Program-made: the position numbers and the translations under genes | From: Parasphingorhabdus flavimaris | GTDB taxonomy: Bacteria > Pseudomonadota > Alphaproteobacteria > Sphingomonadales > Sphingomonadaceae | Direction: 5' to 3' | Assembly: GCF_013371215.1 (NCBI RefSeq) | Contig: NZ_JABWMH010000002.1 | Coordinates: 186,001 to 250,000, forward strand | Length of the DNA: 64,000 nt | Shown: positions 14,248-37,816 of the stretch, piece by piece | How positions within the stretch are numbered: position 1 is the first letter of the stretch | Layout: each line of letters opens with the position of its first letter | Notes under the pieces: model-generated | Seen by the model: only the letters and a program-made list of their open reading frames with translations | Told to the model about the DNA's origin: nothing | Databases searched by the model: none

Positions 14248-16140
14248 ATGGCCACCGCAGTGAAGCAGGAAGAACCCAATAGTCCCCACCCGGACGGCGC
14301 AGAAAATGTCGTCGTCCGCTTTGCCGGCGACAGCGGCGACGGTATGCAGCTGACCGGAGGGCAGTTCACCCTCTCGACGGCACTGGCCGGCAACGATCTG
14401 GCGACTTTCCCGGATTTTCCGGCAGAAATCCGCGCGCCTCAAGGGACGCTGTTCGGTGTTTCCGCGTTCCAGATCAACTTTGGCTCGCGCGCGATCGAAA
14501 CCGCCGGTGACCAACCGGATGTGCTGATCGCGATGAACCCGGCTGCGCTGAAGACCAATGTTCAGGCGGTCCGCGCCGGTGGACTGGTGATCGCCGATGA
14601 AGGTGAATTCGGAAAGCGCAATCTCGACAAGGCGCATTACGAGACCAACCCGCTGGAAGATGGCTCGCTCGCCAAATGGCAGTTACTCAAGCTCAATATT
14701 TCCCAGCTGACGCTCGACGCCGTGAAACCCTTCGGCCTTGGTAACAAGGAAGCCTTGCGCTGCAAGAATATGTGGACGCTGGGTCTGGCCCTGTGGATGT
14801 TCGAGCGTGATCGCGAACCGATTATCCAGTGGCTGAAAAGCAAATTTGCCAAATTGCCGGATATTGCAGAGGCGAATATTGCCGCGCTCAACGCCGGACA
14901 TGCTTATGGCGAAACCGCCGAAATTTCCGGCGACGGACTGGGTGGCGGGCATATCACGCCGCACAAGGTGGACCGCGCTCCCGCCGACGCGGGGACATAC
15001 CGGACGGTAACCGGAGCGGAATCGCTTTCTCTCGGACTGGTTGCGGGCGCGCAGCTGGCCGGTTTGCCGATGTTCTTCGGTGGCTATCCGATAACGCCGG
15101 CCTCGGCGATCCTCCACCATCTCTCCCGACTGAAGGAATTCGGGGTGACAACCTTTCAGGCGGAAGACGAAATCGCCGCGATCTGCGCCGCCATTGGTGC
15201 AAGCTATGCCGGCCTGCTCGGGATCACCTCGTCGTCCGGTCCCGGTATCGCGCTGAAAGGCGAAGCCATGGGACTGGCGATCATGACCGAACTGCCGCTG
15301 GTGATCGTCAATTCGCAACGCGGCGGCCCATCGACCGGCCTGCCGACGAAGACCGAACAATCCGACCTCTATCAGGCGGTCTATGGCCGCAATGGCGATG
15401 CGCCGATGCCGGTCATCGCCGCACGTTCACCCGAAGACGCTTTCTACTGCGCCATCGAAGCGGTGCGGATCGCGGTGCAATATATGACTCCGGTGATGCT
15501 GTTGACCGATGGCTATATCGCCAATGCGGCGGAGCCCTGGAAGATTCCCGACGTCGATACGCTCGAGCGTTTTCCGGTCAGCTTCATGACCGAGAAGCCC
15601 GATGATGGGCCGTTGCTGCCTTACAGCCGTGACGAAAATCTCAAGCGCCCCTGGATCAAGCCGGGAACGCAGGGCCTGATGCACCGGATTGGGGGGATCG
15701 AGAAGGGTGTGGATACCGGCCATATCGAATATGGTCCGGCCAACCACCAGACCATGACCGAAATCCGGCGGGACAAGATACTCGGTGTCGCGGACAGTAT
15801 TGGTGATCAGGATCTTGCTTACGGCAAGGCGGGTGCCAAGCTGGCGGTCGTCGGCTGGGGTTCGACCTACGGACCGATCCATCAGGCCGTGGCGCGCGCA
15901 GGCGCGGCGGGTGAGGATGTGGCCCATGTCCATATCCGCAACATCTGGCCATTGCCGAAAAATCTCGGCGAATTGCTCAAGAGCTTTGACCGGATCATTG
16001 TTCCGGAAATGAACACCGGACAGTTGAAGACGATCTTGCGCGACCAATATCTGGTCGATGCGAAGCCGGTCAACAAGGTGTCCGGTCAGCCATTTACCAT
16101 CGCCGAAATTGCTGCGGTGATTGAGGAGAATCTGTCATGA
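14248..16140 (+). CDS. korA: 2-oxoacid:ferredoxin oxidoreductase, fused gamma-alpha subunit
   Basis: A 630-residue subunit in which an N-terminal gamma domain (VRFAGDSGDGMQLTG, FPAEIRAPQGT) is fused to the alpha domain (FFGGYPITPASAILH, ITSSSGPGIALKGEAMG, NSQRGGPSTGLPTKTEQ). With KorB it oxidatively decarboxylates 2-oxoglutarate (or a related 2-oxoacid) to the CoA ester, reducing ferredoxin. ATG 14248 is preferred; the frame opens 12 codons earlier at a TTG. Its stop overlaps korB by 4 bases (ATGA). No ferredoxin gene is nearby. Confidence 0.93.
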   Translation: MATAVKQEEPNSPHPDGAENVVVRFAGDSGDGMQLTGGQFTLSTALAGNDLATFPDFPAEIRAPQGTLFGVSAFQINFGSRAIETAGDQPDVLIAMNPAALKTNVQAVRAGGLVIADEGEFGKRNLDKAHYETNPLEDGSLAKWQLLKLNISQLTLDAVKPFGLGNKEALRCKNMWTLGLALWMFERDREPIIQWLKSKFAKLPDIAEANIAALNAGHAYGETAEISGDGLGGGHITPHKVDRAPADAGTYRTVTGAESLSLGLVAGAQLAGLPMFFGGYPITPASAILHHLSRLKEFGVTTFQAEDEIAAICAAIGASYAGLLGITSSSGPGIALKGEAMGLAIMTELPLVIVNSQRGGPSTGLPTKTEQSDLYQAVYGRNGDAPMPVIAARSPEDAFYCAIEAVRIAVQYMTPVMLLTDGYIANAAEPWKIPDVDTLERFPVSFMTEKPDDGPLLPYSRDENLKRPWIKPGTQGLMHRIGGIEKGVDTGHIEYGPANHQTMTEIRRDKILGVADSIGDQDLAYGKAGAKLAVVGWGSTYGPIHQAVARAGAAGEDVAHVHIRNIWPLPKNLGELLKSFDRIIVPEMNTGQLKTILRDQYLVDAKPVNKVSGQPFTIAEIAAVIEENLS

Positions 16141-17168
16141 ACGAGATGACGAAAATCACGACCACGCTGAAAGACTGGGAAACCGACCAGGAAGTACGCT
16201 GGTGCCCGGGCTGTGGCGATTACGCCATATTAAAGGCCGTACAGCGGACCATGCCCGATCTGGGGGCTGATCCGTCCAATACGGTCTTCATCAGCGGTAT
16301 CGGCTGCTCCTCGCGCTTTCCCTATTATATGGAGACTTATGGTTTCCATACCATCCATGGTCGCGCGCCAGCCGTAGCGACCGGCGTCAAGCTGGCCAAT
16401 CCGGAGCTCGACGTCTGGATCATCACCGGTGACGGCGATGCGCTGTCGATCGGCGGCAATCACACGATGCATTTGCTGCGCCGCAATCTCGACTGCCAGC
16501 TGATGCTGTTCAATAATGAAATTTACGGGCTGACCAAGGGCCAATATTCGCCGACCAGCCGTCAGGGCACCAACAGCCCCTCGACCCCTTATGGTTCGGT
16601 CGACAGGCCGGCATCGCCCTGCGCGTTCGCGCTCGGCGCTGGCGCACGTTTCGTTGCCCGCGGGATCGACATCCACAAGGGACTTCCCGATGTGCTGAAA
16701 GCCGCGCATGCCCACAAGGGTACGTCCTTCATCGAGATTTTCCAGAATTGCATCGTCTATAACAAAGATGTGTTCGAGGAATTTGCGGCCAAGAAAACCG
16801 CAGCCGACACCCAGCTGCATCTGGTAAACGGCGAACCGATGCTGTTCTCCAAGGGTGAAAAGGGCATCACGCTTAACCGCAAGACGCTGCAACTGGAAGT
16901 TGTCGATGTTGTCGATGGCGACTGGGCAGCGGCTGACGTGATTGTCCATGATGTCACCAACCGCTCGGTCGCGCATATGCTGATCGAGATGCAGTTCGGC
17001 GAATTCCCGATGGCACTGGGCGTGCTCTATGACGATCCGCGGCCGACTTTCGAGGCGGCTGTTGTGGCACAGAACGCTGCCGCAGCGGCTGGCAAGAAGC
17101 CGGATTTGCAGGCGTTGCTGAACAAGGGGCAGACCTGGACGGTGACGGAGGACGGGCCGGAACTGTAA
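16137..17168 (+). CDS. korB: 2-oxoacid:ferredoxin oxidoreductase, beta subunit
   Basis: A 343-residue thiamine-diphosphate-binding subunit. Likely 4Fe-4S ligands are the WCPGCGDYA pair, the Cys in GIGCSSRF and the Cys in FQNCIVYN. The TPP signature starts at ITGDGDALSIGGNHTMH and ends in LFNNEIYGLTKGQYSPTS. The HGRAPAVATGVKLANP segment is typical of KorB. Translation is coupled to korA. The pair is complete and should be functional; 2-oxoglutarate is the likeliest substrate but is not proven by sequence. Confidence 0.94.
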   Translation: MNEMTKITTTLKDWETDQEVRWCPGCGDYAILKAVQRTMPDLGADPSNTVFISGIGCSSRFPYYMETYGFHTIHGRAPAVATGVKLANPELDVWIITGDGDALSIGGNHTMHLLRRNLDCQLMLFNNEIYGLTKGQYSPTSRQGTNSPSTPYGSVDRPASPCAFALGAGARFVARGIDIHKGLPDVLKAAHAHKGTSFIEIFQNCIVYNKDVFEEFAAKKTAADTQLHLVNGEPMLFSKGEKGITLNRKTLQLEVVDVVDGDWAAADVIVHDVTNRSVAHMLIEMQFGEFPMALGVLYDDPRPTFEAAVVAQNAAAAAGKKPDLQALLNKGQTWTVTEDGPEL

Positions 17169-17177
17169 AGATTCGGG

Positions 17178-17205
17178 ACTCGCACGAAGACACGAAGGCA
17201 CTAAG
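17178..17205 (+). repeat. Left arm of inverted repeat flanking the GxxExxY gene
   Basis: The sequence CTCGCACGAAGACACGAAGG and following CACTAAG lies 10 bases after the korB stop. It matches, with about four mismatches in 28 positions, the reverse complement of the segment at 17611-17642, so the two arms bracket the GxxExxY gene. The repeating CACGAAG/CACAAAG rhythm is visible in both arms. Confidence 0.75.
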
Positions 17206-17213
17206 ATGTCGGC

Positions 17214-17603
17214 GTGGAACGTATTGAAGAATTCGCCAAAGTCTGTGTTGATTGTGGTTTCTGGCTGCACAAGGAGTTGGGCCCGGGACTGCTTGAATCT
17301 GCCTATGAAATATTGCTTTGCGAGAGTTTGAAAGAGAAAGGTCTTTCTGTCGAAAGACAGAGGATCATTCCTATCGTCTTCAAGGGACGAGTATTGGACG
17401 AGGCCTTTCGGGCTGACTTGATCGTTGAAAATCGACTGTTGATAGAGTTGAAGTCTACCGAACGCTACGCCCCTGTTCACGCCAAGCAGCTGTTGACCTA
17501 TCTGCGTCTGATGGATTTGCCGCTCGGTTTCCTGATGAATTTTGGCGCAGCCACTTTCAAAGAAGGCGTAAAACGGATAGCCAATGATTATTATGCAATC
17601 TAA
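17214..17603 (+). CDS. GxxExxY protein
   Basis: A 129-residue member of the GxxExxY family (PD-(D/E)XK-like fold has been proposed). The name motif is present as GPGLLESAYEILLC, followed by LIVENRLLIELKSTERYAP, whose E-L-K resembles the catalytic end of a nuclease core, and LLTYLRLMDLPLGFLMNFG. The start is a GTG. Codons are more AT-rich than in neighbouring genes and the gene is bounded by an inverted repeat, both suggesting separate acquisition. The biological role of the family is not established. Confidence 0.88.
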   Translation: MERIEEFAKVCVDCGFWLHKELGPGLLESAYEILLCESLKEKGLSVERQRIIPIVFKGRVLDEAFRADLIVENRLLIELKSTERYAPVHAKQLLTYLRLMDLPLGFLMNFGAATFKEGVKRIANDYYAI

Positions 17604-17610
17604 GCACTTC

Positions 17611-17642
17611 TTTCTTTGTGACTTTGTGTCTTCGTGTGAGCA
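17611..17642 (-). repeat. Right arm of inverted repeat flanking the GxxExxY gene
   Basis: Read on the minus strand this is GCTCACACGAAGACACAAAG followed by TCACAAAGAAAG, the partner of the arm at 17178-17205. It ends 6 bases before the TTG start of the next gene and so replaces the region where a Shine-Dalgarno would normally be. Confidence 0.75.
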
Positions 17643-17648
17643 AAAAAT

Positions 17649-18704
17649 TTGGACAATCTGACCCACAGCCTTGCCGGTGCCGTTCTCGGCCAGATGGGGC
17701 TCAAGAAAAAAACCGGCCTCGGCATGGCGACGCTAATCATCGCCGCCAATATTCCGGATATCGACGCGGTGGCGACCTTGCTCGACGGGGTGCAGCATCT
17801 GGCGATTCGGCGCGGGATCACCCACGGGCCGATCGCGATGTTGTTGCTGCCGCTGCTGCTGACCGGGATCATGATCGGCTTTGACCGCTGGCAAGGGATG
17901 CGGGGGAAGCGGCCTGCTGATCGCCTGCCGATCCACAGGGGCTGGTTGCTGGCGCTGGCCTATATCGGCTGTCTCAGCCATCCGGCGCTCGACTGGCTCA
18001 ACAGCTATGGCATCCGCCTGCTAGAGCCCTTTTCATCGCAATGGTTTTATGGCGACAGCATCTTCATCATCGATATCTGGATCTGGGCGGCGCTGATCGC
18101 GGGCCTGTGGCTTTCGCGGCGGCGCGAGAAGAAGCGGGCTGGCAACTGGCAGCGACCCGCGTGGATCAGCTTTGCTGCGGTCTGCGCCTATATCTTTGCC
18201 AATGGCATGATCACCGGCAAGGCAGAAGCGGAGACTGCGAAAGCGGTCGAACAAATGATCGGGGCGGCGCCTGAACTTGTGGTGGCCAATCCGATACCGG
18301 TGATGTTCTGGAAACGGGATATGCTCTGGCAGATGCCGATTGCTCCCGATTCGGACGTTCCCGGAGAAAATCAATATGGTGCGGGAGCCTATAGTCTCTT
18401 CAATCGAGAACAGCCGATGCCCGATGGCGCGATCGTGAAAAACTTGATGATCAATGAGATAATTCGCTATTCGCGGGACACCGACAAAAATGTCGATGCG
18501 TTTCTATTCTGGTCCCGGCTACCTGTAATCCGGGAAAATGTAGAGCTGGAGTCCGAGCAAGGGGTGTCGATACAATTTGGTGATATGCGGTTTCTTGATC
18601 CGATCGTCGCCGATAGGTTTTCCGTGCGGCTTGTTGTTCCATGGAATATCTTCATGGAGACAGCTAATGAAAGGGGTATAAAGGAAGGCTCTGTTGTCGA
18701 ATGA
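17649..18704 (+). CDS. DUF457 membrane-bound metal-dependent hydrolase-like protein (YdjM type)
   Basis: A 351-residue inner-membrane protein. It begins with the family's DNLTHSLAGAVLGQMGLKKK, contains PDIDAVATLL and HGPIAMLLLPLLL, and has further membrane segments at GWLLALAYIGCLSHPALDWL (with conserved H and D), IIDIWIWAALIAGLWL and WISFAAVCAYIFANGMI, then a soluble C-terminal domain. The conserved His/Asp residues suggest a metal site but no activity is established. It must start at the TTG because the family motif begins there. It overlaps the photolyase gene by 4 bases (ATGA), so the two are co-translated. Confidence 0.85.
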   Translation: MDNLTHSLAGAVLGQMGLKKKTGLGMATLIIAANIPDIDAVATLLDGVQHLAIRRGITHGPIAMLLLPLLLTGIMIGFDRWQGMRGKRPADRLPIHRGWLLALAYIGCLSHPALDWLNSYGIRLLEPFSSQWFYGDSIFIIDIWIWAALIAGLWLSRRREKKRAGNWQRPAWISFAAVCAYIFANGMITGKAEAETAKAVEQMIGAAPELVVANPIPVMFWKRDMLWQMPIAPDSDVPGENQYGAGAYSLFNREQPMPDGAIVKNLMINEIIRYSRDTDKNVDAFLFWSRLPVIRENVELESEQGVSIQFGDMRFLDPIVADRFSVRLVVPWNIFMETANERGIKEGSVVE

Positions 18705-20089
18705 CAAAACCCAAAATTATCTGGTTCCGCCGCGATCTGCGCCTTTCTGACCAGGCGGCTGTGGCCGCCGCGTCCGACAGCCCCGTCATCCCGGTCTATA
18801 TTCTCGACGATGAAACGCCGAAACACCGCATCATGGGCGGGGCTTCGCGCTGGTGGCTACACCGGTCACTGGAAGAATTGGAAGCATGTTTGCAGAGTCT
18901 GGGGTCGCGGCTGATCCTGCGGCAGGGGCCGGCTGCAGAGCATTTGGCCGAAATTGTCAAATCGAGTGGCGCGGATGAAATCCATGCGTTGCACCATTAC
19001 GAGCCGTGGTGGATCAATGCCGAGAGGATGTTGGAAAAATCTCTCGGCGACGAGGCCCGGCTGATCCTGCACGACGGCAATTATCTGCTGCCGCCTGGGA
19101 CGGTGACGACCGGAGCCGGTACGCCCTATAAAATCTACACGCCGTTCTGGAAGGCGCTGCGCCAGCATATGCCGCCGGGGGAAGCCGCTCCCGCGCCTGA
19201 AAGCCTCGATGCACCGGACAACTGGCCGGACAGCGATGCTCTGGACGACTGGGGGCTCTTGCCGACCAAGCCGAACTGGGCCGCCGCTTTTGGTGACCAT
19301 TGGCAACCCGGGTCGGCGGGCGCGGAGGATAATCTCGAGGATTTTGCCGACAAGGCGGCGGACTATGACGAGGGCCGCAACCTGCCGTCTGAGGAACTGG
19401 TCTCCCGCCTGTCGCCGCATCTGCATTTCGGCGAGATCAGCCCGGCGACGGTCTGGAACCGGCTGGCGGGGCAGGGGAGCAAGGTCGAGACCTATCTTAA
19501 GGAGCTGGTCTGGCGCGACTATGCGCAAAATGTGATCGACCAGTTCCCGCAATATGGCGGCGAGAGCTATCGCGAGAAAATGCGCGCGCTACCGTGGCGG
19601 GATTTGGGCGATGATGCGGTGAAGGCCGATTTCGGGGCCTGGTGTCAGGGCCGGACCGGCTATCCGATCGTCGATGCCGGGATGCGGGAATTGTGGGCGA
19701 CCGGCTGGATGCACAATCGTGTCAGGATGATTGCGGCGAGCTTCCTGATCAAGCATCTGCTGATCGACTGGCGCGAGGGCGAGAAATGGTTCTGGGACAC
19801 TCTGGTCGACGCCGATTACGCCTCCAACAGCGTCAACTGGCAATGGGTGTCGGGCACCGGCGTCGACAGCAACATGTTCGTGCGGATCATGGCGCCGCTG
19901 ACGCAGTCGGAAAAGTTCGATGCGGGCGATTATATCCGCCAATGGGTGCCGGAACTGGCGGAAATTGATGATCCTTATATTCACGATCCGGAGGATCATG
20001 GTTGCAGGCCGGCGGATTATCCCGCCAAGATCATCGGCCACAAGGAGGCGAGACAACGCGCCCTCGGCGCTTATGCAAAGGTCAAATGA
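18701..20089 (+). CDS. phrB: Deoxyribodipyrimidine photolyase (class I CPD type)
   Basis: A 462-residue flavoprotein that repairs UV-induced pyrimidine dimers with light. The N-terminal antenna domain begins IIWFRRDLRLSDQAA. The FAD domain has LSPHLHFGEISP, WCQGRTGYPIVDAGMRELWA, GWMHNRVRMIAASFL, and WFWDTLVDADYASNSVNWQW, including the Trp residues of the electron-transfer chain region. The ATG lies inside the stop of the DUF457 gene. Assignment is secure; repair of (6-4) products is less likely given these class I motifs. Confidence 0.96.
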   Translation: MTKPKIIWFRRDLRLSDQAAVAAASDSPVIPVYILDDETPKHRIMGGASRWWLHRSLEELEACLQSLGSRLILRQGPAAEHLAEIVKSSGADEIHALHHYEPWWINAERMLEKSLGDEARLILHDGNYLLPPGTVTTGAGTPYKIYTPFWKALRQHMPPGEAAPAPESLDAPDNWPDSDALDDWGLLPTKPNWAAAFGDHWQPGSAGAEDNLEDFADKAADYDEGRNLPSEELVSRLSPHLHFGEISPATVWNRLAGQGSKVETYLKELVWRDYAQNVIDQFPQYGGESYREKMRALPWRDLGDDAVKADFGAWCQGRTGYPIVDAGMRELWATGWMHNRVRMIAASFLIKHLLIDWREGEKWFWDTLVDADYASNSVNWQWVSGTGVDSNMFVRIMAPLTQSEKFDAGDYIRQWVPELAEIDDPYIHDPEDHGCRPADYPAKIIGHKEARQRALGAYAKVK

Positions 20090-37396: not shown

Positions 37397-37816
37397 GGCC
37401 GGTTTATAGCGCAGTCCCTCGAGTAGACAAGCGGGTCCACAGATAGATTTGCCGACCCTGTTCATGGTGGCAAAAGGGCCACTTAAGATGATCCGGACGT
37501 GGCAAGCGTTGTTGATTTGTGCTGATTTCTAGAGCAACTGGCTGACGAGAATATTATGTCGGCAAGCAAGGCTCAAGCCTTACAAAAGCCTTTTGACTTC
37601 CTATATGTTCAATAGGCCTTCGTGATTGCCAATCTGCAATCCCCACCGGCATTGTCTCTTCACGCTCAAAAATTCCTTTGATCGGCTTTCCTGAGGCAGG
37701 ACATCATTCGCAGCACTATCGTTTGAGTTTGTTCGCCGTCTGCCGATCCGGTCGCTTGTTTTCTTTGCAATGACCCGCTGGCTGCCGCGCGAAAACCACC
37801 CCTGGAAGGAAATATC
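37397..37816. other. 420-base non-coding spacer
   Basis: Between the divergent AspH-like gene and the small gene at 37817. It holds no plausible coding frame. A 6-bp inverted repeat (AAGGCT-CA-AGCCTT, about 37567-37580) is the only symmetrical element I noticed. Promoters for both flanking genes must lie here, but I cannot place them with confidence. No tRNA-like fold was recognised. Confidence 0.5.

Follow-up and report, generated by a model that had tools for sequence, protein, structure and literature searches.

A GxxExxY nuclease gene between octamer arms at a korB-DUF457 junction suggests an overlooked kind of nuclease-and-palindrome element

Our analysis of a 64-kb window from Parasphingorhabdus flavimaris (the whole stretch of DNA that was analysed) centres on a 462-nt block, bounded by arms, that lies between korB and a DUF457/YdjM gene. 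We give even odds, a probability of roughly 0.5, to the reading that this block is a selfish palindromic unit of the REP/RAYT kind with an unrelated enzyme, a minimal Cas4-like PD-(D/E)XK nuclease. This main reading is supported by an empty junction in relatives, by matched arms, by similarity that runs from arm to arm, by gene-less copies and by remnants that keep their arms. Somewhat more tentatively, we propose that GxxExxY nucleases across bacteria may be the enzymes of undescribed and widespread palindrome-spreading elements, which would recognise tandem-octamer arms, move rarely and spawn gene-less palindromes. Arms are found without the gene in the host genome, and units of gene and arms are found in many phyla; together these therefore suggest an overlooked kind of nuclease-and-palindrome genetic element.

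The block and its junction

The gene for the beta subunit of a 2-oxoacid:acceptor oxidoreductase, korB (16137..17168, plus strand), is the left neighbour of the unit, and 10 nt separate its stop codon from the left arm (17179..17206, plus strand). This arm is 28 nt long and consists of CTCG followed by three octamers, CACGAAGA CACGAAGG CACTAAGA, so that the CACGAAG/CACAAAG-like rhythm described in the initial annotation is real. The GxxExxY gene follows (17214..17603, plus strand; GTG start, 129 aa, PD-(D/E)XK nuclease) and then the right arm (17613..17640, minus strand), an inverted copy of the left arm that begins 406 nt beyond it and is 86% complementary, which confirms the imperfect inverted repeat of about 28 bases that had been claimed around the gene. 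The consensus of the octamers, which stand in tandem, is CRCNRAGN, with the right arm largely complementary. No longer inverted repeat is among those listed for 16000-19500, and a 24-mer from the left arm, searched with at most 3 mismatches, matches the 64-kb window at the two arms only and 100 shuffles not at all. In a predicted single-strand DNA fold of 17170-17648 the arms pair with each other, and the fold as a whole is mildly stabler than shuffles (z -1.94; 5 of 100 shuffles do as well). Scans of 16900-17900 returned no promoter-like site and one terminator-like site, neither result rising above shuffles.

The right neighbour is the DUF457/YdjM gene (PF04307; 17649..18704, plus strand), which starts with TTG here and with ATG in relatives that lack the unit. 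As described earlier, the right arm abuts this start codon, but the distance from its end to the TTG at 17649 is 8 nt rather than 6; reading the sequence by eye, we likewise see no GGAG-like Shine-Dalgarno motif before the TTG. The gene is also AT-richer than its surroundings, as had been stated, with a GC content of 46.7% compared with 58.3% in korB, 56.7% in DUF457 and 59.1% in the window.

The same junction in related genomes indicates how it may have come to look like this. DUF457 could be located in 31 of 32 genomes of the genus. Four of them (G007, G009, G012 and G021) have an empty site, where the korB stop codon is followed after 6 nt by a DUF457 start that reads ATGGA(T/C)AA; another 12 have a spacer of about 210 nt with no GxxExxY match, and in G017 the spacer is shorter. 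The unit or part of it is present in 14 of the 31. Nine complete carriers have a gap of 472-481 nt between korB and DUF457, G022 carries the unit in a gap of 536 nt, G005 has an internal deletion (358 nt) and G004 has a unit cut by the contig end. In G008 and G025, with gaps of 108 and 120 nt, the GxxExxY gene is gone, and what remains is the left arm in full, a portion of the right one and scraps of the gene's ends. DUF457 starts with TTG in 13 of the 14 carriers, the exception being ATG in G022, versus ATG in all 17 non-carriers (TTG in 0 of 17). The empty sites and this split in start codons therefore bear out both an insertion at the gene boundary and a displaced leader with a changed start codon, as the initial annotation had supposed, and from such alignments we take the 462-nt block to be an insertion at the korB-DUF457 junction. 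Nothing definable as a target-site duplication was seen at the korB site. Read by eye, the site is occupied in several genera, and on a gene tree the GxxExxY genes from it cluster, with 4 changes compared with 9.5 in shuffles (site labels assigned by eye; L130 left out of the tree).

Separately, the 3' half of DUF457 (window 18171-18704) has 52-61% DNA identity to nine carriers, compared with 86-94% for the 5' half, and G004 alone has 95% identity over the 3' half; these alignments make a recombination inside the DUF457 gene possible.

Probable movement and exchange of the unit

We compared 647 pairs of loci that have a core match above 300 nt and are flanked on both sides by at least 700 nt. 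In 243 of them the match is confined to the unit or its vicinity, many of these being diverged and ending inside the gene. Between L114 and L115, two sites of one genome, a match of 468 nt at 75.6% identity extends from left arm to right arm, and the match between L037 and L045 begins and ends at the arms. No unit-confined pair among the 647 exceeds 75.6%, so that moves to new sites are slow or rare, and the apparent age of these pairs counts against our main reading. Copy numbers are low, with one GxxExxY gene in 36 and two in 13 of the 52 genomes that have a match. The pair L001-L122 was dropped as a case of one unit at two sites, as its left flanks are alike.

Exchange between species can be looked for at the korB site. 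Between G001 and G002 the gene has 10 differences in 381 positions, compared with 105 in 960 for korB (p 1.2e-7), with dS of 0.084 versus 0.537, and for G000 and G003 there are 21 differences in the gene and 119 in korB (p 1.5e-4). This contrast suggests that species have exchanged the unit at this site. Across two allele groups the reverse holds, with 74 of 381 differences in the gene and 114-130 of 960 in korB (for instance 114 of 960 for G000-G010), and G010-G028 shows no contrast in either direction (p 0.13); misaligned korB dN/dS values involving G022 are left out. Units at unrelated sites that are alike from arm to arm, and likeness between species that is confined to the unit, support the earlier suggestion of a small mobile unit, if indirectly.

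Could the nuclease retain the unit rather than spread palindromes? In a homing-like scheme it would cut empty junctions or palindromes without the gene, a copy that bears the unit would serve as template for repair and so bring the unit in, and the gene, by separating the arms, would protect the unit. The gene lies exactly between the arms as this would require, the low divergence of the gene relative to korB in G001-G002 is similarity of the expected unit-confined kind, and the korB site is filled in several genera by genes that cluster on the tree. On the other hand, between the two allele groups (G000-G010 above) the gene is more diverged than korB, arms of 24-30 nt offer little homology for repair, and vertical descent with ordinary recombination could yield the same mosaic. 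We consider this scheme unlikely, at perhaps one chance in five, though it survives better than the other alternatives.

Arms with and without the gene

If the arms are ends of a unit, the two arms of a locus should match each other. For 131 distinct loci we scored the best alignment of the left flank with the reverse-complemented right flank. The scores of the loci's own pairs sum to 4440, versus 2442 +/- 67 in 10,000 permutations (maximum 2744), a comparison that does not give a clean probability because related loci are in the set. The own score is at least 28 in 76 of the 131 loci, a level also reached by 10% of mismatched pairs because arm types are common to several loci; in 38 of the 76 the own right flank outscores all 75 others, and the own right flank is the best partner in 37 of the 131. 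Very different arms can be common to both sides of one locus (e.g. L110, L116, L117, L131 and L161). When the right flank is reversed without being complemented, 0 of 131 loci reach 28. Against the main reading, however, 55 of the 131 have no strong inverted pair and 23 reach 28 in direct orientation. Moreover, template-switch correction of quasi-palindromes is an alternative source of such matching, and the matching seen here could stem from it.

What the initial annotation missed is that the arms of the window's unit also form dispersed gene-less palindromes. In the host genome CACRAAGNCACRAAG (at most 1 mismatch) has 35 matches, 31 of them outside the window's unit, versus 4 for the reversed control, and CGCNAAGNCGCNAAG has 15 versus 1, seven of the 15 being on contig C5, at the second GxxExxY gene or next to it. 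Twelve gene-less places examined in this genome comprise nine short hairpins, with loops of 8-45 nt, and three single arms. The host's second GxxExxY unit (L001; G000:C5:152766-153567) has CGC-type arms and an extra inverted arm pair alongside.

One gene-less palindrome, at C4:246044, was followed in 30 loci of the genus, the host's included. A palindrome of CAC or CGC type is present in 10 of the 30 (the host among them), the place is cleanly empty in 12, with the neighbouring genes 5 nt apart, other palindromes stand at the same point in 5, and 3 have 433-448 nt of other sequence. This polymorphism of filled and empty sites implies that gene junctions gain and lose gene-less palindromes, and the one at C4:246044 gives the impression of a general landing point for palindrome families. 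A candidate target-site duplication, ATGAC(C), is found on both sides of most filled copies, which constraints from gene overlap explain equally well. A second palindrome, at C1:243091, is wholly or partly kept in 12 of 30 loci, the alignment falling short of the stretch in the other 18. The gene-deleted remnants of G008 and G025, as aligned above, suggest one way in which a gene-less copy can arise.

Two further observations concern these repeats. At C4:246044 and its orthologous loci L284-L288 the species differ in palindrome family (CCGTTCGTGCTGAGCTTGTCGAAGC..., GTCACCCTGAACTTG...). At L004:1104-1220 (G000:C1, near 242700) lies another dispersed repeat, about 73-117 nt long, that ends near a CCTTCTCCC/GGGAGAAGG hairpin; genomes of the carriers' group each have many partial matches to it.

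Do palindromes and nuclease gene occur together? Across 296 relatives, in counts that include the units' own arms and over related genomes that are not independent, a GxxExxY match is present in 17 of 20 genomes with at least 6 CAC-type matches versus 35 of 276 others (p 9e-12), and outside the host genus in 6 of 8 versus 21 of 256 (p 1.6e-5). For CGCRGAG the corresponding figures are 11 of 16 genomes with at least 6 matches and 41 of 280 others (p 4e-6), with a match in 0 of 32 genomes of the host's genus; its reversed control was not used because three-unit runs match it backwards. The octamer counts also lean to whichever arm type the genome's own unit has when 16 CAC-armed are compared with 12 CGC-armed genomes (p 0.002 and 3e-6; arm types assigned by eye). 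Some genomes count against the main reading: the CGC-armed G097 and G152 are rich in CAC-type matches (39 and 22), and palindromes occur without any GxxExxY match in 3 of the 20 CAC-rich and 5 of the 16 CGC-rich genomes. Those without a match include G103 (16 CAC-type matches) and G167 (10), and among the CGC-rich G100 (30), G124 (26), G133 (8) and G052 (7); in G008 (7 CAC-type matches, 82% complete) the gene is represented solely by the korB-site remnant.

Palindromes in genomes that lack a GxxExxY match could reflect movement by RAYT or some other enzyme, with GxxExxY as a trapped passenger that is kept for a host function. The host genome does have one intact and one broken Y1_Tnp gene, and other palindrome families do occupy the junction at C4:246044. 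Yet both Y1_Tnp loci lack an octamer pair within about 1.5 kb, the arm type leans to the type of the unit, and the family sits inside such arms in many phyla, so that we regard the passenger idea as improbable, a little more so than homing. RAYT itself was rejected as the mover, there being no arms near the intact or the broken Y1_Tnp gene of the host.

The breadth of the association comes from a scan of species genomes, where the best matches listed comprise at least 80 GxxExxY loci, 74 of them with enough flank. Among these listed matches a forward octamer pair lies within about 130 nt upstream in 51 of 74 and a reverse pair within 150 nt downstream in 37 of 74; both arms are present at 29 and neither at 15, and the listed loci with both arms come from at least ten named phyla. 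For control windows of these 74 listed loci the counts were 11 and 10 of 1763 (about 0.6%). The initial annotation had staked its reading on the same arms flanking other GxxExxY genes, and at these listed loci they were found rather than absent. Against the main reading, an octamer pair in the wrong orientation is found at 12 of the 74 listed loci upstream and at 10 downstream. The pattern read backwards gives 9 and 6 of the 74 listed, a control that is partly unclean, as CGCRGAG runs match the pattern backwards. Other genes bracketed by arms were sought in the 80 listed loci, and the bracketed genes were mostly GxxExxY, with a few other or probably spurious ORFs.

In 18 of 20 GxxExxY-bearing genomes of many phyla, taken from the matches listed, CRCNAAGNCRCNAAG is at least three times as frequent as its control, e.g. 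251 versus 4 in Sphingopyxis, 147 versus 13 in a planctomycete, 63 versus 2 in Nostoc and 140 versus 4 in Roseiflexus; the 20 were selected for having GxxExxY, so that these counts alone do not test for an association. Below that ratio are G313 (28 versus 12) and the Geobacter genome of L161 (1 versus 3), which has another arm type. Matches are few in G303, G305 and G311, and in G310 all 11 are on one strand and array-like.

In G310 (C11:78559-79567) matches to CGCCAAGCCGCCAAG share a strand and are spaced by about 110 or 220 nt; these are probably not palindromes but parts of a repeat-rich array. Arrays of octamer arms surround the GxxExxY gene of L164 and recur in its genome (G307:C37:28426-31184, 37482-37702). 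In many Sphingomonadales, GxxExxY lies repeatedly just upstream of a gene with a fabG-like start, judged by eye, and the right arm is often missing (L036, L039-L041, L043, L045, L046, L056, L128, L133 and others).

The nuclease, its possible role and known systems

The protein matches the GxxExxY/PDDEXK_3 family in Pfam (PF13366, E 1.1e-35, 123 bits, cut-off 22) and in NCBIfam (TIGR04256, E 8.3e-36, 122.9 bits, cut-off 35). In an alignment of 78 sequences E28, D68, E78 and K80 never vary, while at least 90% keep Q92 and Y96; the window's protein holds E28, D68, E78-x-K80 and Q92xxxY96, and its catalytic set, E, D, ExK and QxxxY, which we take to be the PD-(D/E)XK motif set, is thus intact. Where it can be estimated, dN/dS of the gene is 0 to 0.2, and the protein is therefore kept functional. 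The predicted structure (pLDDT 94.5, pTM 0.89) has as its nearest solved fold Cas4 SSO0001 (4ic1; E 9e-4, TM 0.52 by query length), the sole hit with E below 0.001, followed by Cas4 Pcal_0546 (4r5q, E 6.4e-3) and, with weaker values, alkaline and lambda-type exonucleases; a search of solved structures by sequence gave no match at E up to 1. Judging from this model, with Cas4 as the nearest folds and the catalytic residues invariant, the protein is most likely an active, minimal nuclease of the RecB/Cas4 type. It resembles Cas4/RecB-type PD-(D/E)XK nucleases in fold and motif set. Cas4 has an iron-sulphur cysteine cluster; GxxExxY, in contrast, has 129 aa that comprise the core only, with no cysteine among the conserved columns of the 78 sequences.

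How could such an enzyme act on its arms? In our main reading the protein would recognise the octamer arms in folded form (a cruciform, or a hairpin in single-stranded DNA) or perhaps as duplex DNA, and would cut at or near them. Copies of the palindrome, some carrying the gene and some not, would then be placed by host repair or replication at other gene junctions or at the corresponding site of a related genome. In this scheme the copy that bears the gene would be a rarely moving source and the gene-less palindromes its non-autonomous derivatives. To our knowledge PD-(D/E)XK enzymes do not act as transposases on their own, which counts against this main reading.

The arms might instead be operator or docking sites, for autoregulation or for marking self DNA in defence, and not mobile ends. 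Left arms commonly end no more than about 15 nt from the start codon (its position set by homology), where an operator would lie, and in PADLOC the protein has weak similarity to a defence-associated PDDEXK profile (E 0.0038) and to Cas4 (E 0.043). However, sharp arm-to-arm ends at unrelated sites and polymorphic gene-less copies need the arms to be copied, and the protein has no PHROGs family match at E up to 1 and 0 matches in 50,697 phage records. We hold this view to be quite improbable. A phage origin was rejected on the same 0 matches in the phage records; among 72,556 plasmid records, 8 have a GxxExxY match.

The closest parallel is offered by REP/REPIN sequences and their RAYT (TnpA_REP) enzymes, the REPtrons, described in the accessible parts of two papers (PMC3116915, PMC8266576) as dispersed intergenic palindromes, with inverted doublets and a nuclease gene, in which repeat and enzyme have co-evolved. 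As in REPtrons, there are dispersed small intergenic palindromes, gene-less yet like those beside the gene (35 matches versus 4, nine hairpins), and an associated nuclease gene that is mostly single-copy (36 of 52 genomes with a match). Unlike in REPtrons, the enzyme is PD-(D/E)XK and not HUH, the gene lies inside the palindrome between the arms, and the arms are tandem octamers; no HUH Y1 transposase was found beside the repeats, the Y1_Tnp loci being without an octamer pair within about 1.5 kb. A GTAG or CGTC tag (names as in PMC3733652) marks the foot of REP palindromes. Within 12 nt of the feet, on both strands, neither tag occurs at the window's unit or in 8 of the 9 host hairpins, and the hairpin at C4:246044 has one GTAG. 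As both the HUH enzyme and the tag are absent, we do not file the GxxExxY system under REP/RAYT. If the main reading holds, the system would parallel REP/RAYT with an enzyme from another nuclease superfamily: such repeats could pair with a nuclease other than an HUH transposase, a set of intergenic palindromes would have an origin, and there would be an explanation for gene junctions being split and start codons rewritten by such elements, as for DUF457 here. The octamer arms and gene-less copies give the GxxExxY family a testable substrate and role.

MITEs and small insertion sequences are a second comparison. As in these, terminal inverted repeats surround one gene and bound a mobile block, and internally deleted copies keep their ends. 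The differences are that the unit has no transposase domain, the sole family match in Pfam and NCBIfam being the PD-(D/E)XK protein, that it measures 462 nt in all and that no unit-confined pair among the 647 compared exceeds 75.6%. The Rpn proteins have the PD-(D/E)XK fold but belong to a different Pfam family, and we know of no palindromic arms for them. As recombination-promoting nucleases, Rpn proteins (PF04754) are linked to DNA mobilisation in the parts available of PMC5350276 and PMC10327210.

Finally, the arms, which can pair across the gene and of which the right one abuts the DUF457 start, could belong to an RNA-level element that pairs in a korB-GxxExxY-DUF457 transcript for cutting by RNase III or for control of translation, but left-right mismatches are of G.U type in 62 cases and of A.C type in 60 (p 0.93), so that pairing looks DNA-level with no sign of an RNA stem, and Rfam gave two matches, both far below cut-offs. 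TIGR02436, the four-helix intervening-sequence protein, had no match in the host genome, an uninformative result as that search's control was also without signal. We hold this RNA-level reading to be very improbable indeed. Intervening sequences of 23S rRNA with an S23/four-helix protein are bracketed by inverted repeats. That of Coxiella is a selfish element of 428 nt with one small ORF, as given in the accessible part of PMC4990558. The GxxExxY unit differs from these in lying outside rRNA, in having an unrelated protein and in having no RNA-level pairing bias, the mismatches lacking the G.U-tolerant compensatory change of the rRNA type. An RNA stem or intervening sequence as the main reading was rejected on the G.U/A.C comparison and on the lack of any near-cut-off Rfam match.

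In the accessible parts of open-licence papers (including PMC8934634, PMC3733652, PMC12085832 and PMC9756366) we found no tie between GxxExxY and palindromes or arms, and, in the open-licence papers, no described function for these proteins, which are present in many phyla. Where GxxExxY or PF13366 is named in the accessible text, it is in passing: as a gene beside a reverse transcriptase, in a table of algal-virus genes and as a domain expanded in microalgae.
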